Source: Sedimentisphaerales bacterium
GTDB lineage: Bacteria; Planctomycetota; Phycisphaerae; Sedimentisphaerales; SG8-4
Reading direction: 5' to 3'
Length of the DNA: 64,000 bases
Assembly (NCBI GenBank): GCA_016928975.1
Contig: JAFGJR010000050.1
Location: 1-64,000 of the forward strand
Part shown: positions 16,119-54,727 of the stretch, in pieces
How the letters are laid out: each line of letters starts with the position of its first letter
Numbering within the stretch: the stretch's first letter is position 1
Notes under the pieces: generated by a model
What the model saw: only the letters and a program-made list of their open reading frames with translations
The model's database searches: none
What the model was told of the DNA's origin: nothing
Made by a program: the position numbers and the translations under genes

Positions 16119-16124
16119 AAAGTA

Positions 16125-16987: not shown

Positions 16988-17029
16988 CGCCGAATCCGTC
17001 GGTGCAGTCAACGAACGTACGAGGGAAGA

Positions 17030-21665: not shown

Positions 21666-21713
21666 GATCATGCCCACGGCGGCCGAATGGAAGGCCCGGT
21701 GGAGTGTGTGAAC

Positions 21714-22511: not shown

Positions 22512-22524
22512 TCGATCCGCGGAC

Positions 22525-25888: not shown

Positions 25889-25958
25889 GACGGGGGATGA
25901 ACCGGGTCTGCACTGGGATGGGAAGGCGGCCGAGACATATCTCGTTGAGGGATGATCG

Positions 25959-28355
25959 TTGAGTCTACTGGAGCAAAGCAAGACTACCGCGCTGGCGCGA
26001 GCCGCCCGATGGGCCTATCGAGTGGGGGTCGGGCGGCGCTGGATCTATGCTGGGATCCTCGCGACTCTGACCATGCTCGGCGGATTGATCGTGACTCGCG
26101 TGCCCATGCGGGAAGACATCGCGGGGATGCTCCCGGATAGCGATCCGACATTCGTGGCCAGCTACCGGTTGCTGGAGGCGGCTCCGTTCACGCGAAGCAT
26201 TCTCATCGATCTGGAAGCTCAGGAGTCCGGGCAGGCGTCTCTGCTGACGGAGACGGCGGAGCGGTTGTGTGAACGGCTGAGACCACCGCTGATCTCGCGG
26301 GTGACAAGCAGTCTGTCCATGGAGACAGGGGTGAGTCTTATTGACTGGCTCTATGCGCACATGCCGCAGTTGTTTACGGAGGAAGATGCGGCTGCGCTGC
26401 GGTCCAAGGTCGCGTGCCAGCAGGTGGGCGAGACACTGAAGAACGACCTTCAAACCCTTGCCGGTCCGGAGGGGATCTGGCTGCGAAAGTGGCTCGCCAA
26501 GGATCCCCTCGGCTTCCGCGATCAGGTGCTGCGAAAACTCGGCAACGTCGCCTTTCTTCCCGGTGTCCAGATCGAGCGGGGATTCCTCGTGGACCCGGCG
26601 GGCAGGCACCTGCTGGTTGTGGCGGAGACGCCGATCTCCATGGGGGACTCGCAGGGCGGCGCGCAGCTACTGCGGTATTTGGATGAGGCGATCTCGCAAA
26701 CGGTTCCGGAGGCGGTTCAAGCCCGTGTGGTCTGTGTTCACCGCTACACGGTCGCCAACGCCGCGACCATCAAACGGGATCTGGTGGTTGTCTTCGGCGT
26801 GTCGTCGCTCGGACTGGTCGTGGTTTTTCTGGTGATGCTTCGCAACTGGCGTGCCATATTCGTGTTTGCAGTTCCGTCGCTGGCTGTGCTGGCAGGCATG
26901 GTGGTAGCCGCGACGCGGTTCCATCCACTGTCGGCGATCGTCGTGGGGTTCGGGGCTGTTCTCCTTGGAATCGCCGACGATTACGGCCTGCATGTGTTCT
27001 ACGCGCTTCGCAGGCCGGGCGCCCGGCCGGAAGAAGAGATGGGGCAACTGGCGGCGCCTATGGTCGTGTCGTTCGCCGCGACTGTGGGGGTCTTCGTCAT
27101 CCTGCTGTGGTCCGCCGTGCCAATCCAGCGTCAGTTGGCCGTGTTCGCGATCTCGGGACTGGTGACAGCCTTCGGGTTGGCTATGGTATGGCTGCCGCAC
27201 TGGGTGGGCCAAGGTCGCCGCGAGCATTGGATGCTGCTGCCCCGCACGCTCGGGACTCATCGTCGCTGGGTGATCGGGGGATGGTTGGCGGTGATCGTGG
27301 TCTGTATCCCGTGGTGCCTTAAGGTGGCATTTGAAGGGGACATTCGATCGGTTGGACTGACCCCCAAGAACATCCTGGCAGACGAGGTTTGCATACATGA
27401 TGTGTGGGGCGACCCGCGGGGGCGCGCTCTCGTGATGGTTCGTGGCGACGACGAGGAGACGGCGCTCAAGACGAACGAGCACGTCTATGCTCAATTGTCC
27501 GGGCGCCGGGGCGCCGGGGAGTTGGTGAGCATGGCTCCACTGTTGCCCAGCCGCGCGACACAGTTGGCGAACCTGGCGAGATGGGAGCATTTCTGGCAGG
27601 AGCGCGGGCGTCTGGACCGATTGGCGGCATCTCTCGACGCCAACGGGCGCGCCCTGGGCTTCTCCAAAGGAGCGTTCAATCCATTCCTTCAGTGGATCAC
27701 GCAGGAGAGGGAGCCCTTCGGTCTTGCGGATCTCCGCCAGGCCGCGGGCCCGCTGTTGGAGCCACTGTGGGTGTCTCAGCCGACCGGCGTGGGCTTGATC
27801 AGCCTGGTCAGCGATGACGGCGACGCGCCGGCGGCGGCAGACTTGGCCGGCTTGGATCTGCCGGGTGTCCAGGCGGTTTCGCAGAAGCGGTTCGCGATTT
27901 CGCTGCGACAATTGCTGCACCGGGATTTCACCCGGTTTCTGGTGGGCGCCCTGGTCATGGTCACGGCGGTTCTGGCGGTCACGTTGCGCCGTCCCGGACA
28001 GGTCGCTCTCTGCCTGCTGCCGGCGGCAACCGGAGTGGTAGTCATGCTGGCGTTGATGGGCCTGCTGGGGATCCGAGTGAACCTGTTCAACATCGCGGCC
28101 GGCGTGCTCGTCCTGGGACTGAGCATCGACTACGGGACGTTCATGCTCCATCGCTCCCGGGAACGGGACGGGACGGCGGAGCAATCCGTGGTCACTTCGG
28201 CCCTCACAACGATCAGTAGTTTCGGCGCCCTGTCGCTGGCGCATCATCCGGCAATGTTCTCGCTGGGCATCACCGTCGTCTTAGGACTCCTTCCTTCTAT
28301 GATTTGCGCCCTCGTCGTGGTTCCTGCGATGCAGCACCACGGCTGGGCGGACTGA
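25959..28355 (+). CDS. MMPL/RND-family exporter
   Basis: A 798-residue transporter with two similar halves, each of one transmembrane helix, a large periplasmic loop and about five clustered helices. Helix 1 is near residues 27-50, cluster 1 near 265-400, helix 7 near 430-450 and cluster 2 near 655-795. The helix motifs 'GIADDYGLHVFY' and 'LSIDYGTFMLHR' carry the acidic residues that couple proton flow. MMPL proteins export lipids and glycolipids, and one is present in almost every aryl-polyene cluster. It starts with TTG at 25959, supported by GAGGGATG upstream. It probably exports the lipid-linked polyene to LolA. Confidence 0.88.
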   Translation: MSLLEQSKTTALARAARWAYRVGVGRRWIYAGILATLTMLGGLIVTRVPMREDIAGMLPDSDPTFVASYRLLEAAPFTRSILIDLEAQESGQASLLTETAERLCERLRPPLISRVTSSLSMETGVSLIDWLYAHMPQLFTEEDAAALRSKVACQQVGETLKNDLQTLAGPEGIWLRKWLAKDPLGFRDQVLRKLGNVAFLPGVQIERGFLVDPAGRHLLVVAETPISMGDSQGGAQLLRYLDEAISQTVPEAVQARVVCVHRYTVANAATIKRDLVVVFGVSSLGLVVVFLVMLRNWRAIFVFAVPSLAVLAGMVVAATRFHPLSAIVVGFGAVLLGIADDYGLHVFYALRRPGARPEEEMGQLAAPMVVSFAATVGVFVILLWSAVPIQRQLAVFAISGLVTAFGLAMVWLPHWVGQGRREHWMLLPRTLGTHRRWVIGGWLAVIVVCIPWCLKVAFEGDIRSVGLTPKNILADEVCIHDVWGDPRGRALVMVRGDDEETALKTNEHVYAQLSGRRGAGELVSMAPLLPSRATQLANLARWEHFWQERGRLDRLAASLDANGRALGFSKGAFNPFLQWITQEREPFGLADLRQAAGPLLEPLWVSQPTGVGLISLVSDDGDAPAAADLAGLDLPGVQAVSQKRFAISLRQLLHRDFTRFLVGALVMVTAVLAVTLRRPGQVALCLLPAATGVVVMLALMGLLGIRVNLFNIAAGVLVLGLSIDYGTFMLHRSRERDGTAEQSVVTSALTTISSFGALSLAHHPAMFSLGITVVLGLLPSMICALVVVPAMQHHGWAD

Positions 28356-28362
28356 GGCAACG

Positions 28363-28755
28363 ATGCGTACGTTACGAGAAGAAATCATGGCGTGTACGGA
28401 GGGACGGATTCGGACCCTGGGGGAGGACGGAAGCCAGGAGCTTGTCTTTAGTTTCGGCAAGGGTTTCACCGGCTTCTCCGGCCATTTCCCGGGTCATCCG
28501 GTTCTGCCGGCGTTCGTCCAGTTGCTGACGGCACAATGTGCTTTACAGATCCGCAGCGCCCGAAACTGGAATTTGCGCCGGGTGGCTCGGAGCAAGTTCC
28601 TCAGGATAATCCTGCCGGACGAGCCCGTGACAGTTCGATGGCGGGAGCAGCCGCAGGGCGGCGAAGTACGATGCAGCTTCACGCTGCTGGTGAACGACCA
28701 GAAGGCAGCGGTTTTCACGCTCGATTTCGCCTCTGAGGAAACCTGCCATGCGTAA
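28363..28755 (+). CDS. Hot-dog fold protein, FabZ-like but lacking the catalytic Glu
   Basis: A 130-residue hot-dog protein with the FabZ signature FSGHFPGHPVLPAF at 38-51. In FabZ the stretch continues to the catalytic Glu six residues after the Pro, but here that position is Leu55, and the N-terminal catalytic His is not evident. It may be a non-catalytic partner, a dehydratase with a different mechanism or a thioesterase. Aryl-polyene clusters usually encode two dehydratase-like proteins, one of which resembles this. It follows the exporter closely and overlaps the thioesterase gene. Confidence 0.75.
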   Translation: MRTLREEIMACTEGRIRTLGEDGSQELVFSFGKGFTGFSGHFPGHPVLPAFVQLLTAQCALQIRSARNWNLRRVARSKFLRIILPDEPVTVRWREQPQGGEVRCSFTLLVNDQKAAVFTLDFASEETCHA

Positions 28756-29209
28756 GCCGTACTTCGTGCCCGTCCAGAATGCACCGGCTCCTTTGAGCCT
28801 GACCGTCAAGCGACGTGTCCGGTTCGAAGAGGTGGATTCCATGGGGATCGTCTGGCACGGCTGTTATCCGAGTTACTTCGAGGACGCGCGAGTGGCCCTC
28901 GGGCATCGGTACGGGATCAGCTACAGTGATTTCATCCGGGAGCGCATTCCGGTGCCCGTGCGGCAAATGCAGATCGACTACTTCTACCCGTTGAGGTTTG
29001 AAGAAGAAATGGAGATCACGGCGATCCTGCACTGGTCGGACGCCGCACGCATCAATTTCGAATACCGGATCCGCAACGACAGCCGCCAACTTGTCTGCAC
29101 AGGCTGCACGGTCCAGATGATGCTGGATCGCGACTTGAACGTGTTGCTTGCACCGCCGCCGTTCTTTGCTGCTTTCCTGCACAGGTGGAAGCAGGGGGAG
29201 TTGGCGTGA
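28748..29209 (+). CDS. Acyl-CoA/ACP thioesterase (4-hydroxybenzoyl-CoA thioesterase family)
   Basis: A 153-residue hot-dog thioesterase. The family active-site motif is at residues 30-45: Asp30 in VDSMGIVWHGCY, His37 and Tyr40. It hydrolyses acyl thioesters and may release or proofread chains on the ACPs. A YbgC-type thioesterase is a usual member of aryl-polyene clusters. It overlaps both neighbours. Confidence 0.85.
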   Translation: MRKPYFVPVQNAPAPLSLTVKRRVRFEEVDSMGIVWHGCYPSYFEDARVALGHRYGISYSDFIRERIPVPVRQMQIDYFYPLRFEEEMEITAILHWSDAARINFEYRIRNDSRQLVCTGCTVQMMLDRDLNVLLAPPPFFAAFLHRWKQGELA

Positions 29210-30336
29210 ATCGAGTGCATGTGGTGGACGCACGGGTCGTGACAGCCCTGGGAGTGGGGCAGGATGCCCTCTGGGCGGGCTTGTTGTCGGGGCGCACCGG
29301 GATCGCCCCCGTGCGACGATTTGCCACGGATGCCTACACGTGCGGAGTCGCCGGTTGTATCGCGGCCCTGGACCCCGAGCCCCCTGGCTCACGGTTGGAT
29401 GAGCTGGTGCAGATGCTGTTCGCCGAGCCTTTTTCGGTGCCGGCGGATGCGATGTTGCTTACTGCGACCACGAAGGCGGGAATCGACCAGTTGGAGAAGG
29501 TTGTGCGTGAGCAAGGGACGGCTCTGGACCGCGTCCTGGGGTGTCAGGTGGCGGACTTGATCGCGGCTCGATTGGGTTTGAAGGGATGGCGATGCAGCAT
29601 CAATGCGGCGTGCGCATCCGCCACGGTGGCCTTATCATTGGCGGCCTCACGGATCGAACAGGGGGAGGCCGAGTCGGTTCTGGTGTGCGGCCTGGATGTG
29701 GTCTCGGAGTTCGTATTCTCAGGATTCTCTGCGTTGAAGGCCCTGTCGCCGCAAGTGTGTCGTCCCTTCGATGTGAACCGTGACGGCCTGGTCCTGGGGG
29801 AAGGGGCGGCGTGCCTGCTGCTGATGAGCGAGCGTGCCTGCTGCAAGGCCAAACGCCAGAGCCTCGGGCGGATCGTCGGCTGGGGGATTGCCTCCGACGC
29901 CCATCATATCACCGCGCCGTCGAGAACGGGCGAAGGGCTGGTCCTGGCGGTCCGCCAGTCCTTGGACCGGACCGGACTACAACCGGCCGATATCGCCGCG
30001 ATCAATACTCATGGCACCGGGTCCGTTTACAACGATGCCATGGAGCTGACCGCCTTCTCCACGGTCTTCAATCCACTGCCTCCGTGTCATTCCATCAAGG
30101 GGGCCACGGGACATACGATGGGTGCCTGCGGAGCGATCGAGACCCTCGTGGGGCTGTGCTGCCTGAGGGATCAGTGCATCCCGCCGACCGTGGGCTTGCG
30201 GACGCCGGAGCCGGGCGGGCAGGGACGTATTGCGGCTCACGTGCAGGCCATTTCGGGAGATTTTCTGCTGACCACGAACTCCGGCTTCGGGGGGGTCAAT
30301 GGGGCCATCATCCTGCAAAGGAGTTCTCCATGGTGA
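29206..30336 (+). CDS. Beta-ketoacyl-ACP synthase (FabF type), compact
   Basis: A 376-residue ketosynthase, slightly shorter than FabF. Cys136 is in NAACASAT, the first His in 'INTHGTGSVYNDAMEL' and the second in 'SIKGATGHTMGACGA', so the catalytic triad is complete. It starts with GTG overlapping the thioesterase stop. It overlaps the next, Cys-less ketosynthase-like gene by seven bases, so the two form a second KS-CLF-like pair in the cluster, independent of the pair at 13407-15643. Confidence 0.9.
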   Translation: MNRVHVVDARVVTALGVGQDALWAGLLSGRTGIAPVRRFATDAYTCGVAGCIAALDPEPPGSRLDELVQMLFAEPFSVPADAMLLTATTKAGIDQLEKVVREQGTALDRVLGCQVADLIAARLGLKGWRCSINAACASATVALSLAASRIEQGEAESVLVCGLDVVSEFVFSGFSALKALSPQVCRPFDVNRDGLVLGEGAACLLLMSERACCKAKRQSLGRIVGWGIASDAHHITAPSRTGEGLVLAVRQSLDRTGLQPADIAAINTHGTGSVYNDAMELTAFSTVFNPLPPCHSIKGATGHTMGACGAIETLVGLCCLRDQCIPPTVGLRTPEPGGQGRIAAHVQAISGDFLLTTNSGFGGVNGAIILQRSSPW

Positions 30337-41495: not shown

Positions 41496-42341
41496 TCACG
41501 TCTCTAACTTCACGGCGAAGGTCATCACCCGGACGTTGTATGCGAACGCGGCGGCCACGGCGAAGACGAATACGGCCACCGTCCACCAGGAGCTCAAGCC
41601 GGCTCCGACCAGCGACCAGGCGAGCAGAGCGTCCACGAAGGTGTAGAGGGCAAGCACCAGGGCGTTCGCCCGGTTGGATTTCCGGCGGCACATGGCTCGC
41701 ATGAAGTTGATTGTCAGAACGGGCAGCAGCAGCACGGTGACCAGCCAGCCAAACAGCCGCTGGAACCAGGGGAATGCCCTCGTCCTTCCCTGTACGGCCG
41801 CCACGATAGACTCGCCGGGCGATGTTTCCACCTGGTACCTTTTGGAGAGGACGTCCTGGCCCGTCGACACGTCCGCCAGACTGACCTCGATGTCAATCTT
41901 GGCGCCGGTAGGGTAGGACTCGAAGGTATGAACCACGCCGTATAGAACCCCGCCGACGCCTAAGTGCTCGCCGTACTTGACGACTGCCTTGGTGGACCGT
42001 TGCGCCGGCTGGCGCAGCTTCAGCAGCTTGCGCAGCTTCTCCGAGATCGTGCGGTTTCGCACGTCCAGAATGCCTGCCTGGCCGATCGCCCGCCGAAGGC
42101 CATCCGTGAAGTAGCCGGTGGAGTCGTTGTCCAGATGGAGCAGGGCGGCCTTGCGAAGCGCTCCTCTGGAATTGCGAATATCATCTACGACGGCCGAGAT
42201 CACCTTGTCGGCCAGGTCCTTGCGGGCGGCTCCAATCTGGGGCGTATCCGGCCTCAGGTTCCCCCAGCCCGACCAGGCCACGTAACTCACCAGCGCAAGC
42301 GTGCCGACTTTCCTCACGATGGAGCCGACCAGTCTTGGCAT
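41496..42341 (-). CDS. Membrane protein with CsgG/TolB-N-like domain
   Basis: A 281-residue protein: an N-terminal hydrophobic segment, a soluble domain at about 40-185 resembling CsgG/LpoB/TolB-N folds ('LGVGGVLYGVVHTFESYP', then 'IEVSLADVSTGQDVLSKRY'), and three or more transmembrane segments after residue 190. ATG at 42341 is preferred to GTG at 42350 because GGAGAG then lies at a normal distance. It is the last gene of the leftward arm, 25 bases after the Vps4-like ATPase, so co-expression with the ESCRT-like proteins is likely. Its role is not known. Confidence 0.65.
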   Translation of the reverse strand: MPRLVGSIVRKVGTLALVSYVAWSGWGNLRPDTPQIGAARKDLADKVISAVVDDIRNSRGALRKAALLHLDNDSTGYFTDGLRRAIGQAGILDVRNRTISEKLRKLLKLRQPAQRSTKAVVKYGEHLGVGGVLYGVVHTFESYPTGAKIDIEVSLADVSTGQDVLSKRYQVETSPGESIVAAVQGRTRAFPWFQRLFGWLVTVLLLPVLTINFMRAMCRRKSNRANALVLALYTFVDALLAWSLVGAGLSSWWTVAVFVFAVAAAFAYNVRVMTFAVKLET

Positions 42342-42366
42342 GAGTTGCACTCTCTCCGTGTGACCC

Positions 42367-43503
42367 TTACTCGTCTTCTTCCGTATCGGGCGGCTTGACT
42401 CTGGCGTCCCGCCACGACTCGAATTCCCTCAGCATGTCGGTCGTCACGGAGGGTTTCACCTTCGCGATGGCGTCGGTGAAGTCCCTGGCCGTGACGGTTT
42501 CTTGGCTGCCACTGGCGATCTGGCGATTGAGTGCGAAGCGCTTGGCCCGGTCGCACAGCTCCGCCACGTCCGCGCCGCTGTAACCTTCCGTCATAGGCGC
42601 GATGGAGGCAAATGACACGTCGGTGGCGGCAGGGACTCCTTTCATATTCAATGCGATGATCGCCTCTCGCGCCTTCGCGTCCGGCGGACCGACATAGATG
42701 TGCGTGCCCAACCGGCCCGGCCGAATCACGGCTTCATCGAGCACCCAGGGCTTGTTCGTCGCGGTCAGGACCAGCATGCAGTTGGTGTTCTTCACCAACC
42801 CGTCGGTCAAGGCGAGAAACTGCGCGACCGAGCCGATCTTGCGGTTGCCTCGTTTGGCCAGCAGATGGTCCACCTCATCGAGAAAGAGGATCGCCTTGGC
42901 ACAGGCGCGGGCCTCATCAAAGAGCCGTTGGAGGTTTTTCTCCGTCTCGCCGACGTACTTGTCCTTGATCTGGGAGGCGTTGACGTTGAAGAACGCCGCA
43001 TCCAGTTCGCCTGCCACCGCCTTGGCGATGTAGGTCTTCCCGTTGCCCGGCGGACCATACATCAGAATGCCGCCGCCGATGCGGACCTTGAATCGCTCGT
43101 ATACCTCCGGATGCAGGAACGGCTCGATCACCTTCTCCCGTAACTCCTGCTTCACGTCCTCCAAACCGGCCACGTCCTCCAGCTTCTCGGCAGGTCGGTC
43201 CCTCAACTCCCAGGGGCTCGTGCCGGTGCTGCCCTCGCCTGCATTGGCCTCTTTGATCGCCTTGCGGGTGGCGTCGCTGTTCTGGCTCTTGGCTTTGGTC
43301 TTGAGCTCGGCTGCGATGTTGATCAGCTCCGTGGCGTCCTCGACGTACCGTGCGGCGATCTTGCCCTCCGTCTCCTCTGCCAGCTTCAGGCCGAACTCCG
43401 CCGCCTTGGCAGTGTGGAAGAAGGCTCTGGCGTAATCCTTTTCCAGGATCGCCTTCTCCGCCCCCGCTTCATGCTCTCGCTTCTTGTCGGCGATGAAGCT
43501 CAT
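42367..43503 (-). CDS. Vps4-like AAA ATPase with N-terminal MIT domain
   Basis: A 378-residue protein. Residues 5-70 form a three-helix MIT-like domain ('EKDYARAFFHTAKAAEFGLK' and then 'RYVEDATELINIAAELK'). After a linker comes one AAA domain: Walker A GPPGNGKT (150-157), aromatic pore loop in KDKYVGETEKN, Walker B ILFLDE (205-210), sensor Asn250 and arginine finger in IRPGRLG. The C-terminus has the extra helix of the meiotic AAA clade (Vps4, katanin, spastin): 'VTARDFTDAIAKVKPSV' followed by DMLREFESW. Vps4 disassembles ESCRT-III by binding MIM motifs with its MIT domain. The start overlaps the stop of the ESCRT-III-like gene (ATGA). A CDC48/CdvC-like relation is the alternative. Confidence 0.85.
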   Translation of the reverse strand: MSFIADKKREHEAGAEKAILEKDYARAFFHTAKAAEFGLKLAEETEGKIAARYVEDATELINIAAELKTKAKSQNSDATRKAIKEANAGEGSTGTSPWELRDRPAEKLEDVAGLEDVKQELREKVIEPFLHPEVYERFKVRIGGGILMYGPPGNGKTYIAKAVAGELDAAFFNVNASQIKDKYVGETEKNLQRLFDEARACAKAILFLDEVDHLLAKRGNRKIGSVAQFLALTDGLVKNTNCMLVLTATNKPWVLDEAVIRPGRLGTHIYVGPPDAKAREAIIALNMKGVPAATDVSFASIAPMTEGYSGADVAELCDRAKRFALNRQIASGSQETVTARDFTDAIAKVKPSVTTDMLREFESWRDARVKPPDTEEDE

Positions 43504-44147
43504 TTCTCGTCCTCCATCAGCTTCTTGAGTCGCGACCGCGCGTCGGTGATCTGGTCCTTGACACCGCCGTCCTGTTCCATCTGCCTGGCGGGTCGCGCCG
43601 TGCCGATATCCGCGGCCGCCTCGTCCTGGAGCTGCTTCATCATCTCGTCGGTCGTGGGGATCACGTCGGTCATCTGGTTGGCGACGCCTTCCATTTCCTT
43701 GCCGTACATCCTCTCCCAGATCTTGTCCGTGTCCACCTGCTCGCCGAGCTTGTCCTGGACCTCGTCCAGCACGTTGGCGACGACCTCCGGATCGATCTTG
43801 ACGACCATATCGATGGCGCTGAGCGCCTGGGCGAAGTCCTGGTCGCTCTTGGCCAGCTCCATCTTGCTGAGCAGTTGCTCGAAGACCCATCGCTTCATCT
43901 CGAGCTTGGACATGAGCAGCTCATTGGCGCGCACGGACTGCAAACACCGCTGGGCCCCGCCTTTCTGCCCATCCTTGAGATACTGTCGAGCCTCGGCCCA
44001 CGCCTTGTCGCGGTCCTTCTGGAGCTTGCCGATGCGCTCGCGCACGATATCCACCGCGCTCTCCGCCTCGCGGAATGCCTTGCGTCGCTTCTTCGCCTCC
44101 TCCCGCTCCCTCTCACGCTTCGACTTGAATAGATCGCCCAAACCCAT
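43500..44147 (-). CDS. ESCRT-III/Snf7-like coiled-coil protein with C-terminal MIM1-like motif
   Basis: A 215-residue helical protein with ESCRT-III features: short amphipathic start (MGLGDLF), strongly basic first helix (KSKREREREEAKKRRKAF), a helical hairpin with a CHMP-like stretch ('ARQYLKDGQKGGAQRCLQSV'), then an acidic second half and at the very end DARSRLKKLM (RLKKL at 206-210), like the MIM1 motif that MIT domains bind. The next gene is a MIT-AAA ATPase and overlaps it. The call rests on motif pattern and context: a plain coiled-coil protein or PspA/Vipp1 relative is possible. The ATG at 44147 has AAAGGAG upstream. Confidence 0.75.
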   Translation of the reverse strand: MGLGDLFKSKREREREEAKKRRKAFREAESAVDIVRERIGKLQKDRDKAWAEARQYLKDGQKGGAQRCLQSVRANELLMSKLEMKRWVFEQLLSKMELAKSDQDFAQALSAIDMVVKIDPEVVANVLDEVQDKLGEQVDTDKIWERMYGKEMEGVANQMTDVIPTTDEMMKQLQDEAAADIGTARPARQMEQDGGVKDQITDARSRLKKLMEDEK

Positions 44148-44245: not shown

Positions 44246-46099
44246 TCATGGAAGATGGGACGGTGTTGCCCTCGCAAGGCGGAACCCCACGTTGACGCCG
44301 TGGTCGCCTGGTGTGTTCCCGTACCGGACTGCCGAGCGGCAATACCTGGCGATGCCTCGCCAGCCGCCGCCGCGGATGACCCGTTGGACGCCCGAATCGG
44401 GACCAGGCGGATCCGTCACCGGCTCTTGGCAATACTCCGCGCACCAGTCCTGACACCACTCCCACACGGTCCCGTGCATATCATGCAAGCCCCAGGCGTT
44501 GGGCTTCTTCTGGCCCACACGATGTGGCTTCCAGGCACTATTGTCCTTATACCACGCGTATTGACCAAGGATGGAATCATCGTCTCCGAAGGCGAAGCGG
44601 CCGGCGCTTCCGGCGCGACAGGCGTACTCCCACTGGGCCTCCGTCGGCAGCTCGCATTGTTGTCCCTCCCTGGCACTCAGTCTGCGACAGAACTCCGTTG
44701 CATCGTTCCACGAGACGCTCTCCACCGGCATATCGTCCCCTTTGGAATGACTCGGCTCGGTTCCCATGACGGTCCTCCATTGTGCCTGAGTCACGGGGAA
44801 CGTGCCCATGTAGAACGCCCGGCGGATCGTTACCTCATGCTGTGGACCTTCGTTCTGGAAGCGACCCTCTTCGTCGTCGGGCGAACCGATGAGGAATCGA
44901 CCGGCCGGGACCAGAATCATGGGGAGCTTCACGCCCTTGCCACAGTCCAGTTCGGTGGTCCAAGGCAGGCCGAGCGCGTCGGCAGCGGCACGCTGGACTT
45001 CCTGCGCCTCCTCCGGCCTCATCGGGAAGAACGCCTCGACCGGCCGGATCCTGGTCTCCAGCTCGATTTGTAGCCGCGCGTCTCCAAGTCCATCGAAACC
45101 GACCTGCCGCTCCCAGGGCTTGTGTCCATCCTTCTCCGCGAGGATTCGATACTGGCCGGTCGGCAGGGTCAACTTCACAGGTGCAAGACCCGCCGCACGA
45201 CCATCCACGCTTACTCTCGCGCCCGCCGGCACTGTCTCTATGTGCAGCGCGGGCTTCTCCACGATCTCGATTCGTCCCTTGCGAGGGGATGGCTGTGAGC
45301 CAGGCTCCGCGCTCGCCCTGGTATCGGCCAACACGATCTCGTGCCACGAGCCGAGCTGCTGGCCCCAGGGGGTCTGCGGCATGGGAGTCTTGAATTTCTT
45401 CGCCCATCGCGGGACTTGTTCCTCAACATATCGGCCCAGGGCCTGGACCGTCAGCCTGTTGGTCTCGTCAAACGCGGCTCCCCTTATCCCCTCCAGCAGG
45501 TAGTGGGTAAAAGCCCCGTGCTCCTGGTCCGGCCATTCATATGCCCGCTCCCCTTCAGAGCACGAGAACAGCAGACAGGTCGTCGGCGTCGTGCCCTCCG
45601 CGGGCGTCTCGGCTGCTGTCACGATATCTCGGCTGAACTCGTGCGTGAGAAGATTGTCCGTGTCGCCCATTCCCTTGTGCGGGTCGTTGCGGCACGCGTC
45701 GAGGATCAGCACCCGGTGTGCAGATTCCATGTAGCCCAGACACTCTCCCAGGACGGCCATCGATAGAGACGCCAACTGGGGCATGTGGATGCGGGAATTC
45801 GCTGTCAGCAGATGCGCGCCGGTCCTGGTCTGCACCCCGTGGCCGGCGAAGTAGAACAAGAACAGGTCCTCGTGGGAGAGCAAGGGGGCCAGATTATGCA
45901 AGGCATCCACGATGTTGACGTGGTCGGGCATCTTGTCGCCACCTGTGACCAGAGTGCGCACCAGGTCGAAGCCGCATACGTCGCGAAGGCATTGGCCGAC
46001 CTCTTCCGCATCGCGCGCGGCGAAGCTCAGATCCGTGATCTCCGGATCATCGTATTTGCTGATTCCCACGACTAACCCGTATTTCTTCATATTCGTCAT
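44246..46099 (-). CDS. Caspase-fold protease (C14, metacaspase-like) fused to PEGA and formylglycine-generating-enzyme-like domains
   Basis: A 617-residue three-part protein. Residues 5-235 are a caspase-like domain with the catalytic dyad His87 (FAGHGVQT) and Cys136 (LDACRND). Residues 285-350 are a PEGA domain. Residues 390-612 are an FGE-sulfatase (SUMF1)-like domain ('MILVPAGRFLIGSPDDEEG', 'PTEAQWEYACRAG', 'HGTVWEWCQDW', GFRLA), common in bacterial conflict proteins as a C-type-lectin-like binding module rather than an enzyme. It is cytoplasmic by sequence. The gene lies between the two ESCRT-III-like genes in the same leftward arm. The upstream gap is 11 bases. Confidence 0.9.
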   Translation of the reverse strand: MTNMKKYGLVVGISKYDDPEITDLSFAARDAEEVGQCLRDVCGFDLVRTLVTGGDKMPDHVNIVDALHNLAPLLSHEDLFLFYFAGHGVQTRTGAHLLTANSRIHMPQLASLSMAVLGECLGYMESAHRVLILDACRNDPHKGMGDTDNLLTHEFSRDIVTAAETPAEGTTPTTCLLFSCSEGERAYEWPDQEHGAFTHYLLEGIRGAAFDETNRLTVQALGRYVEEQVPRWAKKFKTPMPQTPWGQQLGSWHEIVLADTRASAEPGSQPSPRKGRIEIVEKPALHIETVPAGARVSVDGRAAGLAPVKLTLPTGQYRILAEKDGHKPWERQVGFDGLGDARLQIELETRIRPVEAFFPMRPEEAQEVQRAAADALGLPWTTELDCGKGVKLPMILVPAGRFLIGSPDDEEGRFQNEGPQHEVTIRRAFYMGTFPVTQAQWRTVMGTEPSHSKGDDMPVESVSWNDATEFCRRLSAREGQQCELPTEAQWEYACRAGSAGRFAFGDDDSILGQYAWYKDNSAWKPHRVGQKKPNAWGLHDMHGTVWEWCQDWCAEYCQEPVTDPPGPDSGVQRVIRGGGWRGIARYCRSAVRYGNTPGDHGVNVGFRLARATPSHLP

Positions 46100-46110: not shown

Positions 46111-46716
46111 TCAGGCCTCTTCGGCTTCGAGTTTCTTCAACCTTTCCTCTGTTTCCGGCGACAGGGTGATTGGAGGTTTGGTTTCTTCGGCGAACTCGGC
46201 CACGCGCTGCTCGGTCTTGACCGGGGTCGGCTCGGCCACCTCGTACCTCTCTCGTTCCAGGTCGCGCGCCGCTTTGTCCGACTGGCGCAACGTGGCGAAC
46301 AGGTCCTGGAGCTCCAGGGCGATCTCGTCGAACTGCCCCTCGGTGACACCTGTCTGCAAAGCGGCCTTCGCCTCGCGGATCTTGTCCAGGGCCACTCCGA
46401 TGCGGTCGAGGTTCTTGCCGATGATCGTCTCGCGACCGCGGAGGCGGTCCATCTCGCGGAAGACCCGCTCGATCTCGCCGGCGACGACCCTCCTGGAATC
46501 CCCGTGCGAGCGCTCAAACTCCTGCTTCTTCTGCATCGCTCGCGATTCCAGGGTGCGGATTTCCTCCTTGAGGGCTTCGAGGCCGCCGGTATTGTCTCTC
46601 TTCGAGGCCGCGAAGTTTGCCTCCATTGTCTCCAGGGCGCTCGCCCGTCGCCGGGCGTCAGAGCCGCCGAAGAGTCTCGCCACGAGAGACCGGATTGTTT
46701 CCCACAGACCTGCCAT
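46111..46716 (-). CDS. Second ESCRT-III-like coiled-coil protein with C-terminal MIM1-like motif
   Basis: A 201-residue helical protein. It starts with an amphipathic helix likely to enter membranes (WETIRSLVARLFGGS), continues as basic then mixed coiled coil (about 20-150), then a Pro/Thr-rich linker, and ends in SPETEERLKKLEAEEA with RLKKL at 192-196, the same pentapeptide as the protein at 43500-44147. Size, charge order and end motif match ESCRT-III proteins, and a MIT-AAA ATPase is encoded in the same arm. Not a close duplicate of the other protein. A PspA-like protein is the main alternative. The ATG at 46716 has GGAGTGAG upstream. Confidence 0.7.
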   Translation of the reverse strand: MAGLWETIRSLVARLFGGSDARRRASALETMEANFAASKRDNTGGLEALKEEIRTLESRAMQKKQEFERSHGDSRRVVAGEIERVFREMDRLRGRETIIGKNLDRIGVALDKIREAKAALQTGVTEGQFDEIALELQDLFATLRQSDKAARDLERERYEVAEPTPVKTEQRVAEFAEETKPPITLSPETEERLKKLEAEEA

Positions 46717-46949: not shown

Positions 46950-48641
46950 TCAATCCAGCACCTGGAACGACAACAGCGCGCCGGCCCAGCCGTCCGGACC
47001 GATCGCGTCGAGCTTCTCCGTGAGTTTGTCTACCTCGTTCTGCGACAATTTGACGAGCGGTCCTTTGGGCGTCGAGCGCAGCACGGTGCCGTGATCGATC
47101 AGCGGCTCATCCGAGACGATCAGGGCGATGTGCTCCCAGCCGCCGGGTCCTTCCTCCGTGTAGGACTGGATTCTGTCCCAGGGCAGGAATTGCGGCCCGG
47201 GGACTTCATACAGCTTGCCGGTCTCAGCTCTGGCTGCTCGGGCGCTGACGAACGCATTGGGGATGTGCACATAGATGGCGCCGCTGGTGCCGATGTTCAA
47301 GAGCGTGACCAGGCCCGCCCGCATCGTTTGGAAACTGAATTGCAGCGAGCTGTGCTTGGGCAACGCCTGGATTTCAGCGGTGGAGACCTCCGTCGCCAGT
47401 CCGCGCGTGAACCGGACGGATGGAATCGACCGCGTCTGGAGGCCGACTTTCCTGATTGTCGCGGTCTTGGGGTCTTGACGCACCTTCTCTCGAATCCGTC
47501 GCAGAAGCTCGCTGTCCGTGGATGTGTAGCCGGCGAGGGCCACTTGAGCGGGGTCAAAGCCAAACTCCTCCGAGACCAGTCGTTCGATACTCTGGTGCCT
47601 CTGGTCTTTCCGGGCGAGGGACTTCAGGATATCCAGGGCGCTGAGCTTCTCCAGAATCTCCCTGGCCTGGACCAACGTATCCTGGGTTTTCTCATGCATT
47701 CGTTCCATCTGCTCTCGGCCCTTCTGGGCTTGCTGGATCACGTCCAACTGACTGTCCAATCTCGCGACGGCGATCTCGGATTCCTTGGCCGCTTTCTTCG
47801 CCGCCCACTGGGCGTTCTCGATCTGCATCTCCGCCTCGATCAGCTCCTTCTTGTGTTTCTTCTCCAGCAGCGCCAGCTCCTGCTCCTTCTCCATCGCTGA
47901 CAGCCGATTGTCGGTCTCAATCGAAGTCTTCTGTCGTTCATGCTGGGCCTGCAACTCCATCTGTCTCAGCTCAGCCTTGAACGTTGCTTCTTGCTCCCGG
48001 GCGATTGCCGCCAACTCTTCCTGGCGGAGGCGCGCCGTCTCTGCGTTGACCGCCTGGGCACTGTCCCAATGGATCTTCGCGAGGGTCGTCACGATCCCGC
48101 AATCGTCGAGCCAAAGTGACAGTTGTCGCTCCCACCACTGAACGGACAGAACGTCGTTGTGTCGCACCGCGTCAACAGACCCCTGTTCGCCGGCCGCCTG
48201 GTGGATCGCGTCCAGCACCTTGCCGCCGATTCGATGGACGATCCAGGACTCCAGCATCTCCCCGGACAAGGGCAGGTCGGGAGATACCAGAGTCAGGGCG
48301 CAGAACCGCAGGAAACGGTGGAAATCCACTATGGAGGCACTACCTTCCATACCGAGATCCCACTCGTATCCCGACTCGTCTTTGATCACCTTGACGAACA
48401 GCAGCGACAGCGATGGGAGCCGGGATCGAACGCTCACGACAAAACTGTCCAGGGGCAACGATCGCAGATCGGCCAGCGCCTCCCTGTTCGTCGGGTTGAT
48501 GCCGTAGGTCTCGCATCGCTCCCGCGTGCACGTGAAGAGCTTGACCTCATCGAGGGGATCGAGAATCTCAATCGCAGGCTTCTTCCTTCGGAACAAGCCC
48601 TGCTTCATCACGATGGGGTATACTCGGACAACATCAGTCAT
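46950..48641 (-). CDS. SPFH-like coiled-coil protein with C-terminal DUF4384-like domain
   Basis: A 563-residue protein. Residues 1-195 look like a diverged SPFH/band-7 domain, ending with the usual 'WLDDCGIVTTLAKIHWDS'. A long coiled coil rich in Glu/Lys/Gln follows (about 200-325). The C-terminal part has 'FSFQTMRAGLVTLLNIGTSG' and 'GAIYVHIPNAF', the pattern of DUF4384, a domain found with caspases and PEGA proteins in stress-response loci. SPFH proteins scaffold membranes, and in Bacillus one recruits PspA, an ESCRT-III relative. Start ATG at 48641, or GTG at 48650. The SPFH assignment is by pattern and needs a profile search. Confidence 0.6.
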   Translation of the reverse strand: MTDVVRVYPIVMKQGLFRRKKPAIEILDPLDEVKLFTCTRERCETYGINPTNREALADLRSLPLDSFVVSVRSRLPSLSLLFVKVIKDESGYEWDLGMEGSASIVDFHRFLRFCALTLVSPDLPLSGEMLESWIVHRIGGKVLDAIHQAAGEQGSVDAVRHNDVLSVQWWERQLSLWLDDCGIVTTLAKIHWDSAQAVNAETARLRQEELAAIAREQEATFKAELRQMELQAQHERQKTSIETDNRLSAMEKEQELALLEKKHKKELIEAEMQIENAQWAAKKAAKESEIAVARLDSQLDVIQQAQKGREQMERMHEKTQDTLVQAREILEKLSALDILKSLARKDQRHQSIERLVSEEFGFDPAQVALAGYTSTDSELLRRIREKVRQDPKTATIRKVGLQTRSIPSVRFTRGLATEVSTAEIQALPKHSSLQFSFQTMRAGLVTLLNIGTSGAIYVHIPNAFVSARAARAETGKLYEVPGPQFLPWDRIQSYTEEGPGGWEHIALIVSDEPLIDHGTVLRSTPKGPLVKLSQNEVDKLTEKLDAIGPDGWAGALLSFQVLD

Positions 48642-48668
48642 CTTTATCACCAGTTTCGTTGCTCGATG

Positions 48669-49505: not shown

Positions 49506-51032
49506 TCACAGAAGGCCAAGCATCTGCTCGAGCCCGGTCAACTGCCGTTTCACCTCGTCCGGTGTTGTCGAGAAGACTTCCGCCAGCGATTTCAGCTCGT
49601 CGGGCGCCATCGCATATCGATTCTCCCACTCGGCGTCGTAGTTCGCCGCGTAACGGCTCATCTTCCCCTCGGACAGGATCAACTCCTGAAACCGGGCCGC
49701 AAGATAAGCCTGGGAGTCCACGGGGCAATCCTTGTCCTTCTGCACGGCACGGACTTCCCCCAATAGGACCTCGCCCTCGGATGCCTGCTTCTCCAGCAGG
49801 TCGATTCTCTGCTTGATCTGATCTCTTGAATGACCTTCGCGGCCCAGTGCGGCCTTGAGCCCTTCGCGAGTCCGCTCCTTCAGCACCCGAAGGTATTCCC
49901 GTTTCTCGAAGCAGGCGTCCCTGCGAATCACCGACAGCTCGAGGCGGCGGCCTCTGGCCGTCACAAGCTCGACAAAACCACCTCTGGATGTATCTTCAAG
50001 TCCGAGGTCTCGTGCCAGATCATCGACGGAGACGTCGCTCCAGTCCGTGGGCGCCGTGTACTTCAGAAGCAGAGCGGCCCTCGCCACGGGGGCCGCGTCG
50101 GACGGAATCCCTTGCCGCGGTTCCGAAGTCTCCGGATCTTCCGATTCATCGTCATCATCCCTGCGACCGCGATGACTTCTCCAGGCGAGCGTTTCCATCT
50201 GCTCGTCCTGGGAGAACTCATCCGCTCCCGCCGGTCCGGCGTCAGGCGGATTCACCTGCCTCTCCGCCGCCTTCCATATTCTTCTGAATCGGTCTGCCAT
50301 GTTCATCGTCGGGACACTGACCTCTTTGTCCTTCGATTCCAGGAAATCGTGGACGTAGTTTTCAATACATCTATGGAGATATCCCCATGCATCACCCGAG
50401 CCGGGCTTGTACTTCCTGCACATGTCCACCACTTTGCACTCAGTCTTGCAGAGGTAATCGAGTGTTTGCATGAGGCTGACGTCGAAGATGGTCCGATATG
50501 CCTCCGCCATCGCCGGAGCGATTTCGCCCGATTCATGGACAAGATGCCTGTTCTTCTTCGACAAGCCACTATACACGGCTCTGCCGACATGCGTCGTGAC
50601 GATGTCGCCATAGGTGCGACGGCGGGGGTTGTCCGGCGAGAAATCCCCTGGCACGAGTCCTCGGTTGAGGGTGATCCACCAGGCAAGCAGGTGGATGAGC
50701 CGCATCTGGTCCACAGACAGTCGCTTGCCGGCCTCGGCCAGATCGCCCAGCCGCTTCAGTTCGCAGAGCATGTCCTCGTCCGACCAGGAATCGACGCTTC
50801 GCCGGATGAATTCCGCCGCTCGCAGGCTTCCCTCGTCGCACCAGGCATCCCCAAAACCCTCCCGGCCCCAGCGGTCCTGATCGAGCAGCCAGGCGACGAA
50901 ACCGTCGGGCAAGGCCTTTCTGCCCTCGTGCCGACTCACAAAAGTGCACCGCTGGCCGGCTAAGCAGGTACAGGCTTCTCCAGCGACCCACCGTTCCCAT
51001 CGGCTCTCATGGGCATGCTCGTTGTCGGCCAT
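49506..51032 (-). CDS. Large protein of unknown function, possible sigma-factor-like regulator
   Basis: A 508-residue protein (ATG at 51032; the open frame extends upstream but its first 77 codons look non-coding). Residues around 195-245 have helical spacing like sigma-70 region 2 ('AWGYLHRCIENYVHDFLESK'). A region near 320-400 could be a degenerate second DNA-binding part. Neither match is strong. The next gene is a zinc-finger anti-sigma-like protein three bases downstream, which favours regulation. It leads the leftward arm of the ESCRT-like region. Alternatives are a conflict-system protein without known fold. Confidence 0.45.
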   Translation of the reverse strand: MADNEHAHESRWERWVAGEACTCLAGQRCTFVSRHEGRKALPDGFVAWLLDQDRWGREGFGDAWCDEGSLRAAEFIRRSVDSWSDEDMLCELKRLGDLAEAGKRLSVDQMRLIHLLAWWITLNRGLVPGDFSPDNPRRRTYGDIVTTHVGRAVYSGLSKKNRHLVHESGEIAPAMAEAYRTIFDVSLMQTLDYLCKTECKVVDMCRKYKPGSGDAWGYLHRCIENYVHDFLESKDKEVSVPTMNMADRFRRIWKAAERQVNPPDAGPAGADEFSQDEQMETLAWRSHRGRRDDDDESEDPETSEPRQGIPSDAAPVARAALLLKYTAPTDWSDVSVDDLARDLGLEDTSRGGFVELVTARGRRLELSVIRRDACFEKREYLRVLKERTREGLKAALGREGHSRDQIKQRIDLLEKQASEGEVLLGEVRAVQKDKDCPVDSQAYLAARFQELILSEGKMSRYAANYDAEWENRYAMAPDELKSLAEVFSTTPDEVKRQLTGLEQMLGLL

Positions 51033-51214
51033 ACACTCCCGCAAGCAGGCAAACCGTCCCACTTGTCGTACTGAGGCGGCGCTCCGAAGGACCTCAAGAC
51101 TGTCACTTCGCACAGGTGCCCATGGCCAGAAAGCGTGGTCGTTGGCGCCGGAAAGCTCCAATCGTCGTTGGCGATGGCACGTCGAAGCGGTCTCCAACTC
51201 ATATGTACGCGCGA

Positions 51215-51243
51215 GATATACCATATTCCCCGTCGGTTCGCAA
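51215..51243 (-). promoter_or_regulatory. Possible leftward promoter of the ESCRT-like arm
   Basis: On the minus strand, TTGCGA (51238-51243) and TATATC (51215-51220) are 17 bases apart in an AT-rich patch. Each matches four of six consensus positions. Transcription would begin about 180 bases before the 508-residue gene. Confidence 0.35.
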
Positions 51244-51417
51244 CCTCGATCTGTCTGGTCCATGCGCTCGCGTAGGCGACTGGCCGGCCTTGCTTGTATC
51301 GGACCTTGCGCGGCATGTCCCTACTGCAAGGCTCTGTACTGGTATCTATGGGAAATCCACGTCCTCTCAGGGTTCGCAGCCCATTCGGTGACTACGGACA
51401 AACAGGGAGTCGCTTGC

Positions 51418-51633: not shown

Positions 51634-52902
51634 ATGGACGCCGAGGTCGTGTCGAGAATCACGGTCGAGGAATTGCCGAGGATTCGGACGGTGGTCTGGA
51701 ACACAGCCGCTCAAGGCGCATCCAGATGGCTGGCGGCGTGGGGGGCGATCAACGTCGGCGCCTGGTTCCTCCTGGGTAGTGAAAGCCGTGAATTGCTGCG
51801 GGGGCTGCTGAGCCCGAGCGACACAAGGTACCTGCTTCTTCACGGCGGGCTCATACTTGGGGTGGCCATGCTCGCCTTTGCCGGTGTTGGCCTTGCAGCG
51901 CGCTTCCGCAGCGTCATCTTCCTCAATGGGCTGACCCTGATCGCCGCGGGGCTGTGGAACGTGACGAGTGATTTCATCGCCGTAAGCGCCCTCCAGTCCT
52001 ACAGTTACGCGATTGTGACGCCCGGGGCAATGTGGATCCTGATCGGGATCTGCCAGGTCGTGTGGGGAGTGAGACAGCTTGTGACCTTCACGCGAATGGC
52101 GGGCTGGAGCGTGCCGCGCCTTTCTCGACGCGATCCTGGCGACATGAAGAAGACACTACGAAGAGTGGTCGCGATGGCCGACGATCCCCAGGGCGGGCTC
52201 ATAACGGCTTGCGTGACCAGAAAGGGACTCCTTGGGCTGGACATCACGCCCCGAACCGCTGAGTACAAAGGAGTGCTATCGGCGGATATGGCGATCATGG
52301 TTTCCCTCGGGCTGGATGATTGTGTCGCGCTGACCAGACAGGACGCAAACGAGGCGGCGTTCAGCCCCAATGGAATTGTCGCGGTTCAGGCGGAGCGAGA
52401 CCTGGTGGAGCTGTCGGTGACACCGCTGTCGATGTTCGTGTTGAAGGCATGGTGTGGCAAACCTGTGGATGCGGCCGATGTCCGGTTCGCGGCGGAGCAG
52501 AAGGCGCTCACGCTGCCCATGATCCGGACGTGTCTGGCCTCCGAGGATCCTGGCGTGCGAGCGGCCTCGGTCACCGCTCTGGCCACCGTTTCGGAGGAAG
52601 GGGCCGCGAGTCTCGCCGGCATGTGCATGGATGATTCCTCGCCGATCGTCCAGGCGGCGGCCTTGCGCGTCTGCGCACAGTTGAAGGTGGCCGCCGCCGG
52701 CGCCAAAGCTATCGATTTGCTATGGCATCCGGACCCGAACGTGCGGATATCGGCAGCCAGCTTCCTTTCCGCTGTGCCCGAGCCCCGCAGTATGGTGGCC
52801 CTGGAGGAAGCTATCGCCTGCGAAGCGACGGCACCAGCGATGAAGGCATTGAAGTACGCCGCACGCGTCCAGAGCAGACGACCCCAGGCGGCCACCTGTT
52901 AG
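51634..52902 (+). CDS. Membrane protein with C-terminal HEAT-like repeats
   Basis: A 422-residue protein. The first 160 residues contain four hydrophobic segments (about 27-50, 65-90, 95-115 and 125-150). Residues 300-410 are helical repeats of HEAT type ('LASEDPGVRAASVTALATVS', 'LLWHPDPNVRISAASFL'). The middle is not recognised. The ATG at 51634 has GGAGAAGG upstream. First gene of the rightward arm, divergent from the sigma-like gene. It may link a membrane signal to the proteins encoded downstream. Confidence 0.7.
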   Translation: MDAEVVSRITVEELPRIRTVVWNTAAQGASRWLAAWGAINVGAWFLLGSESRELLRGLLSPSDTRYLLLHGGLILGVAMLAFAGVGLAARFRSVIFLNGLTLIAAGLWNVTSDFIAVSALQSYSYAIVTPGAMWILIGICQVVWGVRQLVTFTRMAGWSVPRLSRRDPGDMKKTLRRVVAMADDPQGGLITACVTRKGLLGLDITPRTAEYKGVLSADMAIMVSLGLDDCVALTRQDANEAAFSPNGIVAVQAERDLVELSVTPLSMFVLKAWCGKPVDAADVRFAAEQKALTLPMIRTCLASEDPGVRAASVTALATVSEEGAASLAGMCMDDSSPIVQAAALRVCAQLKVAAAGAKAIDLLWHPDPNVRISAASFLSAVPEPRSMVALEEAIACEATAPAMKALKYAARVQSRRPQAATC

Positions 52903-53341: not shown

Positions 53342-53710
53342 TACGACCCGACAAGGATGCCCACGCTCGCGCACAGGCCATCCCCCTCGCTCAGAAGATC
53401 AGATCGTAGATTGGCGAGCACGAGGGAGTTGATCCTGTCTATGAACGAGATACAATAAGACATCAGCTTCCCACCTGCTCCGTTGCGTGGACTTGCCGGG
53501 CGACACCCCTGGAGGTCGGGCCCGGGACGGTGGATACATGGTGGCAAGGCAGAGGTCACGAGATTGGCGGCGCCGGACCCATTATCATGGCCCGATAATC
53601 CGGGTACGGGCGGACTTCTGCCATAGATGGATCGTGTGGCAGCAGGCAGTATTCGCTGGTGGCCGCCGCAGTCTGCAATCACACATGGATTCCAAGAAGA
53701 GGGCAGTCCG
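53342..53710. other. Intergenic gap before the second caspase gene
   Basis: About 370 bases. A short frame at 53487-53714 overlaps the caspase start and looks spurious. The gap holds the promoter candidate at 53429-53456. Confidence 0.5.
53429..53456 (+). promoter_or_regulatory. Possible promoter of the caspase-CsgG-SPFH operon
   Basis: TTGATC (53429-53434) and TACAAT (53451-53456) are 16 bases apart, about 255 bases upstream of the caspase start. Confidence 0.45.
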
Positions 53711-54727
53711 ATGAACAGACGCGTGGCTTTGGTGGTTGGCGTGGATACATACGAGGACCCGCAACTGACGACTCTGAGATGTGCGGTGCAAGATGCCACC
53801 GAACTTGCGGCTTTCCTGAAGTATCGGGCGGCGTATGACCGGGTGGAGCAGTTGGTCTCCGGCGTAACGGACGACCAGGTCGTGGATACAGCGGTCCGCC
53901 TGGCCGCCGAGCTGGAGCCGGGGGACCTGTTTGTCTTTTACTTCTCCGGTCACGGCATCGAGTACTCCGGACGACACCTTCTGCTGTGCCCCAAGGCTCA
54001 GTATGGCCGCTTGCAGTTCTATAGGCAGACGGTCCCGGTGGATCAGCTTCGCGACGAGACCGCTCGTCCGGGAGTCGATCGCGTGTTCATTCTGGATGCA
54101 TGCCGGACCAGTCCAGTGGCCGGCAGAGGCGTGGGCGGTCTGCGCGGCGAGGTGATCCTGAGAGATGTGGTCGCCAACGCCCAGGCGAAGGCTTCGGATG
54201 CCGGCTCGTTCGGGATGATGTCCTCCTGCTCGGAGGGCGAGCAGGCGGGCGAGTTGGTGTCGCGACAAAATGGTCTTTTCACCGCGGCGCTGTTATCGGT
54301 GCTCGCGACCAGGATTGCAGCGGGGAATGAGACACGCCTCGACGACGACCTGCGGGTGAGCGTGGCCAAAGAGATGGCGGCTCTGGGCACCCAGGAGGGT
54401 GTATGGCACACCCAGAATCCCTGGACTCAATGCAGCGGACCCGGGACCCCCGTCCTCATCCCATCAGGGGTCCAGGAGGTGAGCCAGGGTCCCGCGGCCA
54501 GCCCACAGGCTCGTCCCCAGCGGGTCAGACCGATCGCGCGTGGAGAGGGGTCGCGTGCCGGGCTGACGGCCCAGCAAGAGCTTCGCTGTGGCAACTGCGG
54601 CAAGCGAATTGTCAGCGAGCTGGGGATCGTCGGCCGCTGTCAGGTTTGTCAAGCCGCGCTCTGTGCCGAGTGCTTTGAAATCCGAGAAATCAATCGCTGT
54701 GCAAGGCATCAGGAGCAGGCGAAATAA
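53711..54727 (+). CDS. Caspase-fold protease (C14) with C-terminal zinc-ribbon/RING-like tail
   Basis: A 338-residue protein. Residues 4-255 form a caspase-like domain with catalytic His81 (FYFSGHGIEYS) and Cys131 (FILDACRTS). After a Pro/Gln-rich linker, the last 45 residues have eight or so Cys/His ligands in paired CxxC spacing (CGNCGKR, then CQVC, CAEC and a final CARH), like a small zinc-ribbon or B-box. Metacaspase-like proteases of bacteria are activated by partner proteins in regulated death or defence. Start at 53711; the open frame extends upstream but the rest looks non-coding. Heads the operon with the CsgG-like, SPFH and FHA genes. Confidence 0.9.
   Translation: MNRRVALVVGVDTYEDPQLTTLRCAVQDATELAAFLKYRAAYDRVEQLVSGVTDDQVVDTAVRLAAELEPGDLFVFYFSGHGIEYSGRHLLLCPKAQYGRLQFYRQTVPVDQLRDETARPGVDRVFILDACRTSPVAGRGVGGLRGEVILRDVVANAQAKASDAGSFGMMSSCSEGEQAGELVSRQNGLFTAALLSVLATRIAAGNETRLDDDLRVSVAKEMAALGTQEGVWHTQNPWTQCSGPGTPVLIPSGVQEVSQGPAASPQARPQRVRPIARGEGSRAGLTAQQELRCGNCGKRIVSELGIVGRCQVCQAALCAECFEIREINRCARHQEQAK

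Follow-up and report, generated by a model that had tools for sequence, protein, structure and literature searches.

A bacterial ESCRT-III/Vps4-like gene pair in a planctomycete: a distant Snf7 homologue overlapping the gene of a single-AAA ATPase

A stretch of 64,000 nucleotides from a Sedimentisphaerales bacterium (contig JAFGJR010000050.1, positions 1 to 64,000, called the window here) carries two overlapping genes whose products probably form a bacterial pair of the ESCRT-III/Vps4 type (ESCRT, endosomal sorting complex required for transport), in which the ATPase would grip RLxxL tails and extract subunits from a membrane-bound filament. The first gene encodes P0002 (215 aa; 43500..44147, minus strand), a Snf7/ESCRT-III-like protein, and the second encodes P0001 (378 aa; 42367..43503, minus strand), a Vps4-like ATPase with a single AAA domain. 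The coordinates of both open reading frames given in an earlier note on this DNA are correct. The strand, left unstated there, is the minus strand: P0002 runs from 44147 to 43500 and P0001 from 43503 to 42367, and the plus-strand reading contains stops. The ATGA stop/start overlap of 4 bases reported in that note is present at 43500..43503. The window was compared with four other loci, L001, L011, L012 and L016 (from genomes G001, G502, G532 and G460, respectively). The ATPase gene follows the Snf7-like gene with the ATGA overlap in all five, and the proposed check of gene-pair conservation thus came out positively. Identities to the window are 34–72% for P0002 and 41–75% for P0001, the upper values (72% and 75%) belonging to L001, a metagenome-assembled genome of Phycisphaeraceae and the nearest named genome found.

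P0002 is a distant Snf7/ESCRT-III homologue. Its own match to Pfam Snf7 (PF03357; E=6.7e-5, 23.1 bits) lies under the 27.3-bit cut-off, which is exceeded by its relative P0120 with 34.0 bits. The Snf7-like alignment A1 holds 58 proteins, the query among them, drawn from the 120 listed (340 in total); with the threshold at E 1, every one of them matches PF03357, the best at 5.7e-10. Snf7 is also the best family for three of three divergent members at 34–62% identity (5.7e-6, 7e-5 and 5.7e-4), and none of six reversed-sequence controls matches it. A search of PDB with the family profile returned four SNF7 sequences with E values between 1.1e-5 and 0.0012, followed by a match at 0.28, so that SNF7 alone stands below E 0.01. 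Foldseek with the P0002 model gave the ESCRT-III superfamily in 38 of the best 50 rows, led by CdvB, Asgard ESCRT-IIIB, CdvB2, Snf7 and CdvB. The helix layout is that of ESCRT-III, with a long alpha1-alpha2 hairpin (residues 10–98; 43854..44120, minus strand) ahead of shorter helices and a helix at the C-terminus. The reading frame is not a chance one: counting the query, 340 proteins match it at E up to 0.001, and each of the five loci found by profile has the ATPase gene next in line. The description of P0002 as a 215-residue protein with a basic N-half, an acidic C-half and a C-terminal RLKKL (residues 206–210) is borne out by net charges of +10 over residues 1–100 and −13 over residues 101–215. 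The amphipathic start ascribed to it is not, the moment of residues 1–14 being 0.11; such a start belongs to P0003 (moment 0.49, residues 3–16), a second coiled-coil protein of the same gene run.

PspA and Vipp1 share the superfamily fold and also occur among the fold matches of P0002. The pair could accordingly belong to a divergent membrane stress system of the PspA/Vipp1 type that has an accessory ATPase, and not to ESCRT-III proper, and bacterial PspA beside AAA proteins is known from the accessible text of PMC11237479. Nevertheless, this is very improbable. The seven Pfam families listed for P0002 at E up to 1 include Snf7 and lack PspA_IM30. Across the 58 aligned members, all of which match Snf7, PspA is not within the 25 commonest of 83 families, and the PDB profile search that yields SNF7 yields no PspA. 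The profile and Foldseek checks thus place P0002 on the Snf7/ESCRT-III side, neither a generic coiled coil nor a PspA, and the separation from PspA/Vipp1 drawn in the earlier note can be kept.

P0001 has one AAA domain (117.9 bits) with the motifs intact, as had been claimed: Walker A GPPGNGKT at residue 150, KYVGE at 182, Walker B ILFLDE at 205 and RPGRL at 261. The Walker A sequence is found in 119 of 120 listed relatives. The AAA domain, lid and C-terminal helix occupy residues 96–368 (42400..43218, minus strand), the helix being modelled at 355–367. Vps4_C is matched with 22.4 bits against a cut-off of 21.3, and 60 of the 61 members of the ATPase alignment A3 (61 of the 120 listed proteins) match it at E up to 1, the best at 3.8e-7. 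Other observations bear on the Vps4 assignment. NCBIfam ranks P0001 as CDC48 (223.7 bits) ahead of CdvC (203.8) and PAN (203.7), all far below the model cut-offs. Structural identity is similar (33–39%) to p97, archaeal Vps4, yeast Vps4, katanin and spastin. The stretch TN[KR]PW.LD.A, which we take to be Vps4-like, and the stretch [RS][PA]GR[LI], presumably Cdc48-like, each occur in 110 of 120 listed ATPases. Eukaryotic Vps4 has a beta domain at the position of the lid, and the modelled lid of P0001 has no strand that reaches 3 residues. Because the NCBIfam ranking, the structural identity and the motifs give mixed Vps4 and Cdc48 signals, we call P0001 Vps4-like by architecture only and place it near the Cdc48/Vps4 split. 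Membership of the Vps4/katanin/spastin clade, as first stated, is not supported, since Vps4_C is matched but CDC48 is the best NCBIfam model.

Ahead of the AAA domain, residues 1–75 (43279..43503, minus strand) form a predicted three-helix domain with modelled helices at 3–20, 24–44 and 48–73 (18, 21 and 26 residues). The size and helix count of the model would fit a MIT domain. The sequence comparisons (Pfam, a PDB profile search, hhalign, pairwise Z and shuffled controls) give no support for MIT homology, and the best PDB profile match is a Sel1 repeat protein. MIT chains are also absent from the 50 best fold-search rows for P0001, although all of these rows are AAA proteins and barely test the residues before 92. 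Since every sequence method failed to show MIT, the domain is called MIT-like by predicted architecture only. Of the MIT-like domain originally proposed, the three-helix bundle of fitting size survives as a prediction, and a MIT match in Pfam, PDB-profile or profile-profile tests does not.

These features also suit a different kind of machine, an unfoldase of the Cdc48 type whose helical adaptor domain is TPR/Sel1-like. Its partner would be a coiled-coil substrate or adaptor that has the Snf7 hairpin by descent and no membrane role, and the ATPase would extract or unfold other clients. CDC48 as the top AAA model, Sel1 repeats as the first retrieved by the N-domain profile, and the presumed Cdc48-like stretch in most listed relatives all speak for it. 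We nevertheless consider it unlikely, as Vps4_C recurs throughout the aligned ATPases, the partner is Snf7-like with the two genes overlapping in every locus, a gene like that of P0008 (a probable membrane protein) follows in three of the five loci, and both coiled-coil families share an end motif in the listed relatives.

The end motif is the feature that would tie the ATPase to its filament in the ESCRT-III/Vps4 reading. RLKKL of P0002 (43518..43532, minus strand) forms a MIM1-like tail, and P0003 carries RLKKL at residues 192–196 (46129..46143, minus strand). RLxx[LMI] occurs within the last 16 residues of 112 of the 120 listed Snf7-like proteins and of all 38 listed P0003-like proteins, against 1.3% and 1.0%, respectively, when the last 30 residues are shuffled. 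Conservation in the Snf7-like family is lowest just ahead of the tail, with a mean majority of 0.45 (residues 181–197) versus 0.72 (residues 198–215). A C-terminal RLxxL after a variable linker is conserved in the listed relatives and lost or altered in the two loci that diverge most. In the P0002 family the position of the first leucine in the MIM1 consensus is mostly taken by A or G, and the tail fits MIM1 in part. MIM1 peptides are described, in the accessible text of PMC5840170 and PMC7240154, as leucine-rich helices binding between alpha2 and alpha3 of MIT.

P0003 is not detectably related to P0002. Neither Snf7 nor Ist1 is among the five Pfam families listed for it, hhalign of the two families gives a probability of 0.7%, and the PDB profile search of the P0003 family (alignment A2, 35 of 38 proteins, with P0136, P0154 and P0155 omitted as short) returns generic coiled coils. 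P0003 as a second ESCRT-III protein is thus without Pfam, hhalign or PDB-profile support. Since two coiled-coil proteins of one run, with no detectable relation, end in an identical motif, one shared receptor is suggested for both, most simply the N-domain of the ATPase. The comparison of loci makes this somewhat weaker. The strict RLxx[LMI] is found in three of five loci for the Snf7-like protein (L011 has RLKEVL and L016 none) and in one of three for the P0003-like protein (L011 has RLMEEL and L016 none), which slightly weakens the ESCRT-III/Vps4 interpretation and its boldest form, a working bacterial ESCRT, and slightly strengthens that of an unfoldase.

Linkage of the pair extends beyond the five loci. 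Identical contig size was taken as a proxy for the same contig. Among the 77 Snf7-like clusters whose contigs reach 2 kb, at least 46 sit on a contig of exactly the size of a listed ATPase cluster's, as do at least 32 of the 48 whose contigs reach 5 kb; these counts are lower bounds, as the best 120 proteins are listed. Seven shifted sizes, used as controls, gave 0 or 1 agreement. Source names for the Snf7-like protein include Phycisphaeraceae, Planctomycetota, Hydrogenedentes and Thermodesulfobacteriota, and those for the ATPase additionally include Verrucomicrobiota. The pair is rare among the genomes searched. A search with P0002 found it in 1 of 392 phylum genomes, and the profile in 2 of 392 phylum genomes and 4 of 397 class genomes, all among G001, G502, G532 and G460. 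With Pfam Snf7, 8 genomes give a match at E up to 0.001, and three of them (G502, G532 and G460) have the pair. Family profiles found nothing in the stretches examined of the remaining five, and the Pfam search itself missed G001, a pair-bearing genome. Carriage by a plasmid or virus was considered and dropped, with no plasmid match and no relatives among viral contigs.

In the window the pair belongs to a run of eight tightly packed minus-strand genes, read in the order P0007, P0006, P0005, P0003, P0004, P0002, P0001 and P0008 at intergenic distances of 3, 18, 233, 11, 98, −4 and 16 bases. P0003 (201 aa; 46111..46716), with its amphipathic start and RLKKL end, has 37 relatives besides itself. 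P0008 (284 aa; 41496..42350), 3′ of the ATPase gene, is a probable membrane protein by segments judged by eye. Both L011 and L016 have a P0003-like gene immediately 5′ of the Snf7-like gene and a P0008 homologue (40% and 32% identity, respectively) 3′ of the ATPase gene; in the window P0004 separates P0003 from P0002. Counted over the five loci, including L001 with its contig of just 4.8 kb, a P0003-like gene is present in three, a P0008-like gene in three and a P0005-like gene nearby in four. In L016 the ATPase frame stops early, at 319 aa. The word "complete", used in the earlier note for the ESCRT-III/Vps4-like module, is too strong, and a second RLxxL-tailed partner, P0003, and a recurring membrane protein, P0008, had been missed there. 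A small gene 5′ of the P0003-like gene was also seen in L011 (9215–9859) and L016 (1761–2450); its products are 23% identical, with membrane segments judged by eye and maybe a winged-helix-like part. Neither Pfam nor PDB gave a match for the winged-helix membrane protein suspected here.

The run opens with P0007 (585 aa; 49506..51263, minus strand), a possible sigma-like regulator 3 bases ahead of P0006 (48669..49502, minus strand), a possible zinc-finger anti-sigma-like protein with HX3CX2C at residue 81; Pfam matches are weak for both (Sigma70_r2 E=0.094 and zf-HC2 E=0.22). P0005 (566 aa; 46950..48650, minus strand) is a coiled-coil protein with DUF4384 at its C-terminus (31.7 bits) and tblastn relatives in L011, L012 and L016. 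An SPFH-type scaffold was suspected in P0005 from the gene layout but is not put forward, since Pfam, PDB search, PDB profile, and BLASTP or hhalign against the SPFH protein of the window gave nothing. That SPFH/Band_7 protein (P0284; 56894–58732, plus strand; Band_7 E=4.8e-11) has a double zinc ribbon and a long coiled-coil-like stretch by eye, and is followed by an FHA protein with a zinc ribbon (58875–60497, plus strand). The two genes lie about 5.6 kb past the start of the run, on the opposite strand. Partners in archaeal ESCRT loci include SPFH with coiled coil and zinc ribbon, and FHA, according to the accessible text of PMC10936438. P0284 was not found in the four other pair-bearing genomes by a weak test with no positive control. 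Divergent from the run lie a HEAT-repeat protein (51634–52899, plus strand) and a second caspase-domain protein (53702–54724, plus strand). Two adjacent outer-membrane beta-barrel proteins, alike by eye, are found 3′ of P0008 (39604–41121, minus strand), and genes resembling by eye ketoacyl synthases, acyl carrier proteins and reductases, perhaps of a fatty-acid or polyene pathway, lie at about 13400–30300.

The gene between those of P0003 and P0002 encodes P0004 (617 aa; 44246..46099, minus strand), with caspase, PEGA and FGE-sulfatase-like domains (Peptidase_C14 78.6, PEGA 48.7 and FGE-sulfatase 165.1 bits). Its GHG at residues 86–88 and DACR at 134–137 are likely to be the His/Cys pair. A caspase gene stands beside the pair in two loci, the window and L001. 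In L001 it begins 15 bases past the ATPase gene, and the Snf7-like gene is preceded by a reverse transcriptase domain. ESCRT-III limits pore damage in animal cells. These genes raise the possibility, which we regard as rather doubtful, of a defence or cell-death cassette whose core is formed by the caspase, DUF4384 and FGE-type sensors, with the ESCRT-like pair limiting membrane damage. This overlaps with the ESCRT-III/Vps4 interpretation and differs in the purpose of the module. The caspase-PEGA-FGE gene within the run and the neighbours in L001 agree with such a cassette, as does the match of the FGE end of P0004 to the stretch just 5′ of the L001 Snf7-like gene (40% over 50 residues, E=6e-5). 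It is disfavoured by tblastn of P0004, which finds no caspase in the examined stretches of L011, L012 and L016, so that the caspase looks optional, and by PADLOC, which gives one caspase model and otherwise just AAA models, of the IetA/TRIP13 type or weaker.

Immediately 5′ of its Snf7-like gene L001 has, at 573–1973 and 1630–1752, RVT_1 (63.6 bits) and an Asn-rich FGE-like stretch, and P0018 carries a stretch similar to the latter. In L001 the stretch that follows the reverse transcriptase domain and resembles the end of P0004 has the appearance of a diversity-generating retroelement's template region. Such a retroelement was also sought in the window and rejected: no frame has the reverse-transcriptase Y.DD pattern, and a search for a further copy of P0004's last 175 bases found none at 10 or fewer non-A mismatches per 60.

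In the mechanism that we favour, P0002 would polymerise into filaments on the inner membrane, and P0003, as a co-subunit, may help to reach the membrane through its amphipathic start. P0008 would anchor, signal or trigger the assembly. The N-domain of P0001 may bind the tails as MIT binds MIM1, and P0001 would grip them and strip subunits off the filament using ATP. The purpose, the least certain part, is likely to repair or remodel the membrane when the cell is stressed or attacked, a role suggested by the caspase gene within the cluster in two loci. More tentatively, the module may be a working bacterial ESCRT composed of a Snf7 filament, an RLxxL-tailed second subunit, a membrane anchor and a Vps4-type disassembly ATPase from close to the Cdc48/Vps4 split. 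Such a machine would stand close to the minimal ESCRT that has been proposed as ancestral in early archaea. In certain lineages it would be coupled to caspases and hypervariable sensors and serve bacterial cell-death immunity as its membrane-repair arm.

The pair resembles the archaeal and eukaryotic ESCRT-III/Vps4 systems (Snf7, Vps2 or CdvB with Vps4/CdvC) in its Snf7-family partner, single-AAA ATPase, small helical N-domain and Vps4_C, and in the leucine-based C-terminal tail and the position of the ESCRT-III gene first. This is the usual archaeal order in the accessible text of PMC10936438, and adjacency of the ESCRT-III and ATPase genes, criterion ii of that paper, was found in all five loci with the ATGA overlap. 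Unlike those systems, the pair of the window is bacterial, a MIT domain is not recognisable in it by sequence, its AAA domain scores slightly nearer to Cdc48, its fit to MIM1 is partial, and it has P0003, P0008 and P0005 as extra partners; unlike eukaryotic Vps4, it lacks modelled strands where the beta domain sits. The nearest known bacterial systems are Vps4-like ATPases without Snf7, and Snf7 bearing a transmembrane segment with a double-AAA protein, both in the accessible text of Ravi et al. 2024 (PMC11237479). The former, for instance ACB74714.1, are read there as archaeal transfers, with snf7 displaced by the gene of a TPR/6TM protein, whereas the Snf7-like gene of the window overlaps the ATPase gene. 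In the latter, for instance OGG56892.1, bacterial Snf7/PspA stands beside a protein with two AAA domains, one inactive, and ATP-dependent membrane remodelling is suggested; the window has one AAA domain, a MIT-like domain and a different gene run. No published description of a bacterial Snf7-Vps4 module was found in searches of openly accessible texts, among them conflict-system and retroelement papers, a review and the PspA/Vipp1 paper, and the accessible text of PMC7203096 does not mention the module.

A 2024 survey (Makarova et al.) confines the ESCRT-III/Vps4 pairing to archaea and eukaryotes. A conserved bacterial Snf7/Vps4-like pair, if true, would alter that map. It would also offer a simple system, free of eukaryotic complexity, for studying how ESCRT filaments acquired an AAA enzyme as their motor, and the disassembly of ESCRT-III filaments by a bacterial ATPase would become a directly testable question.
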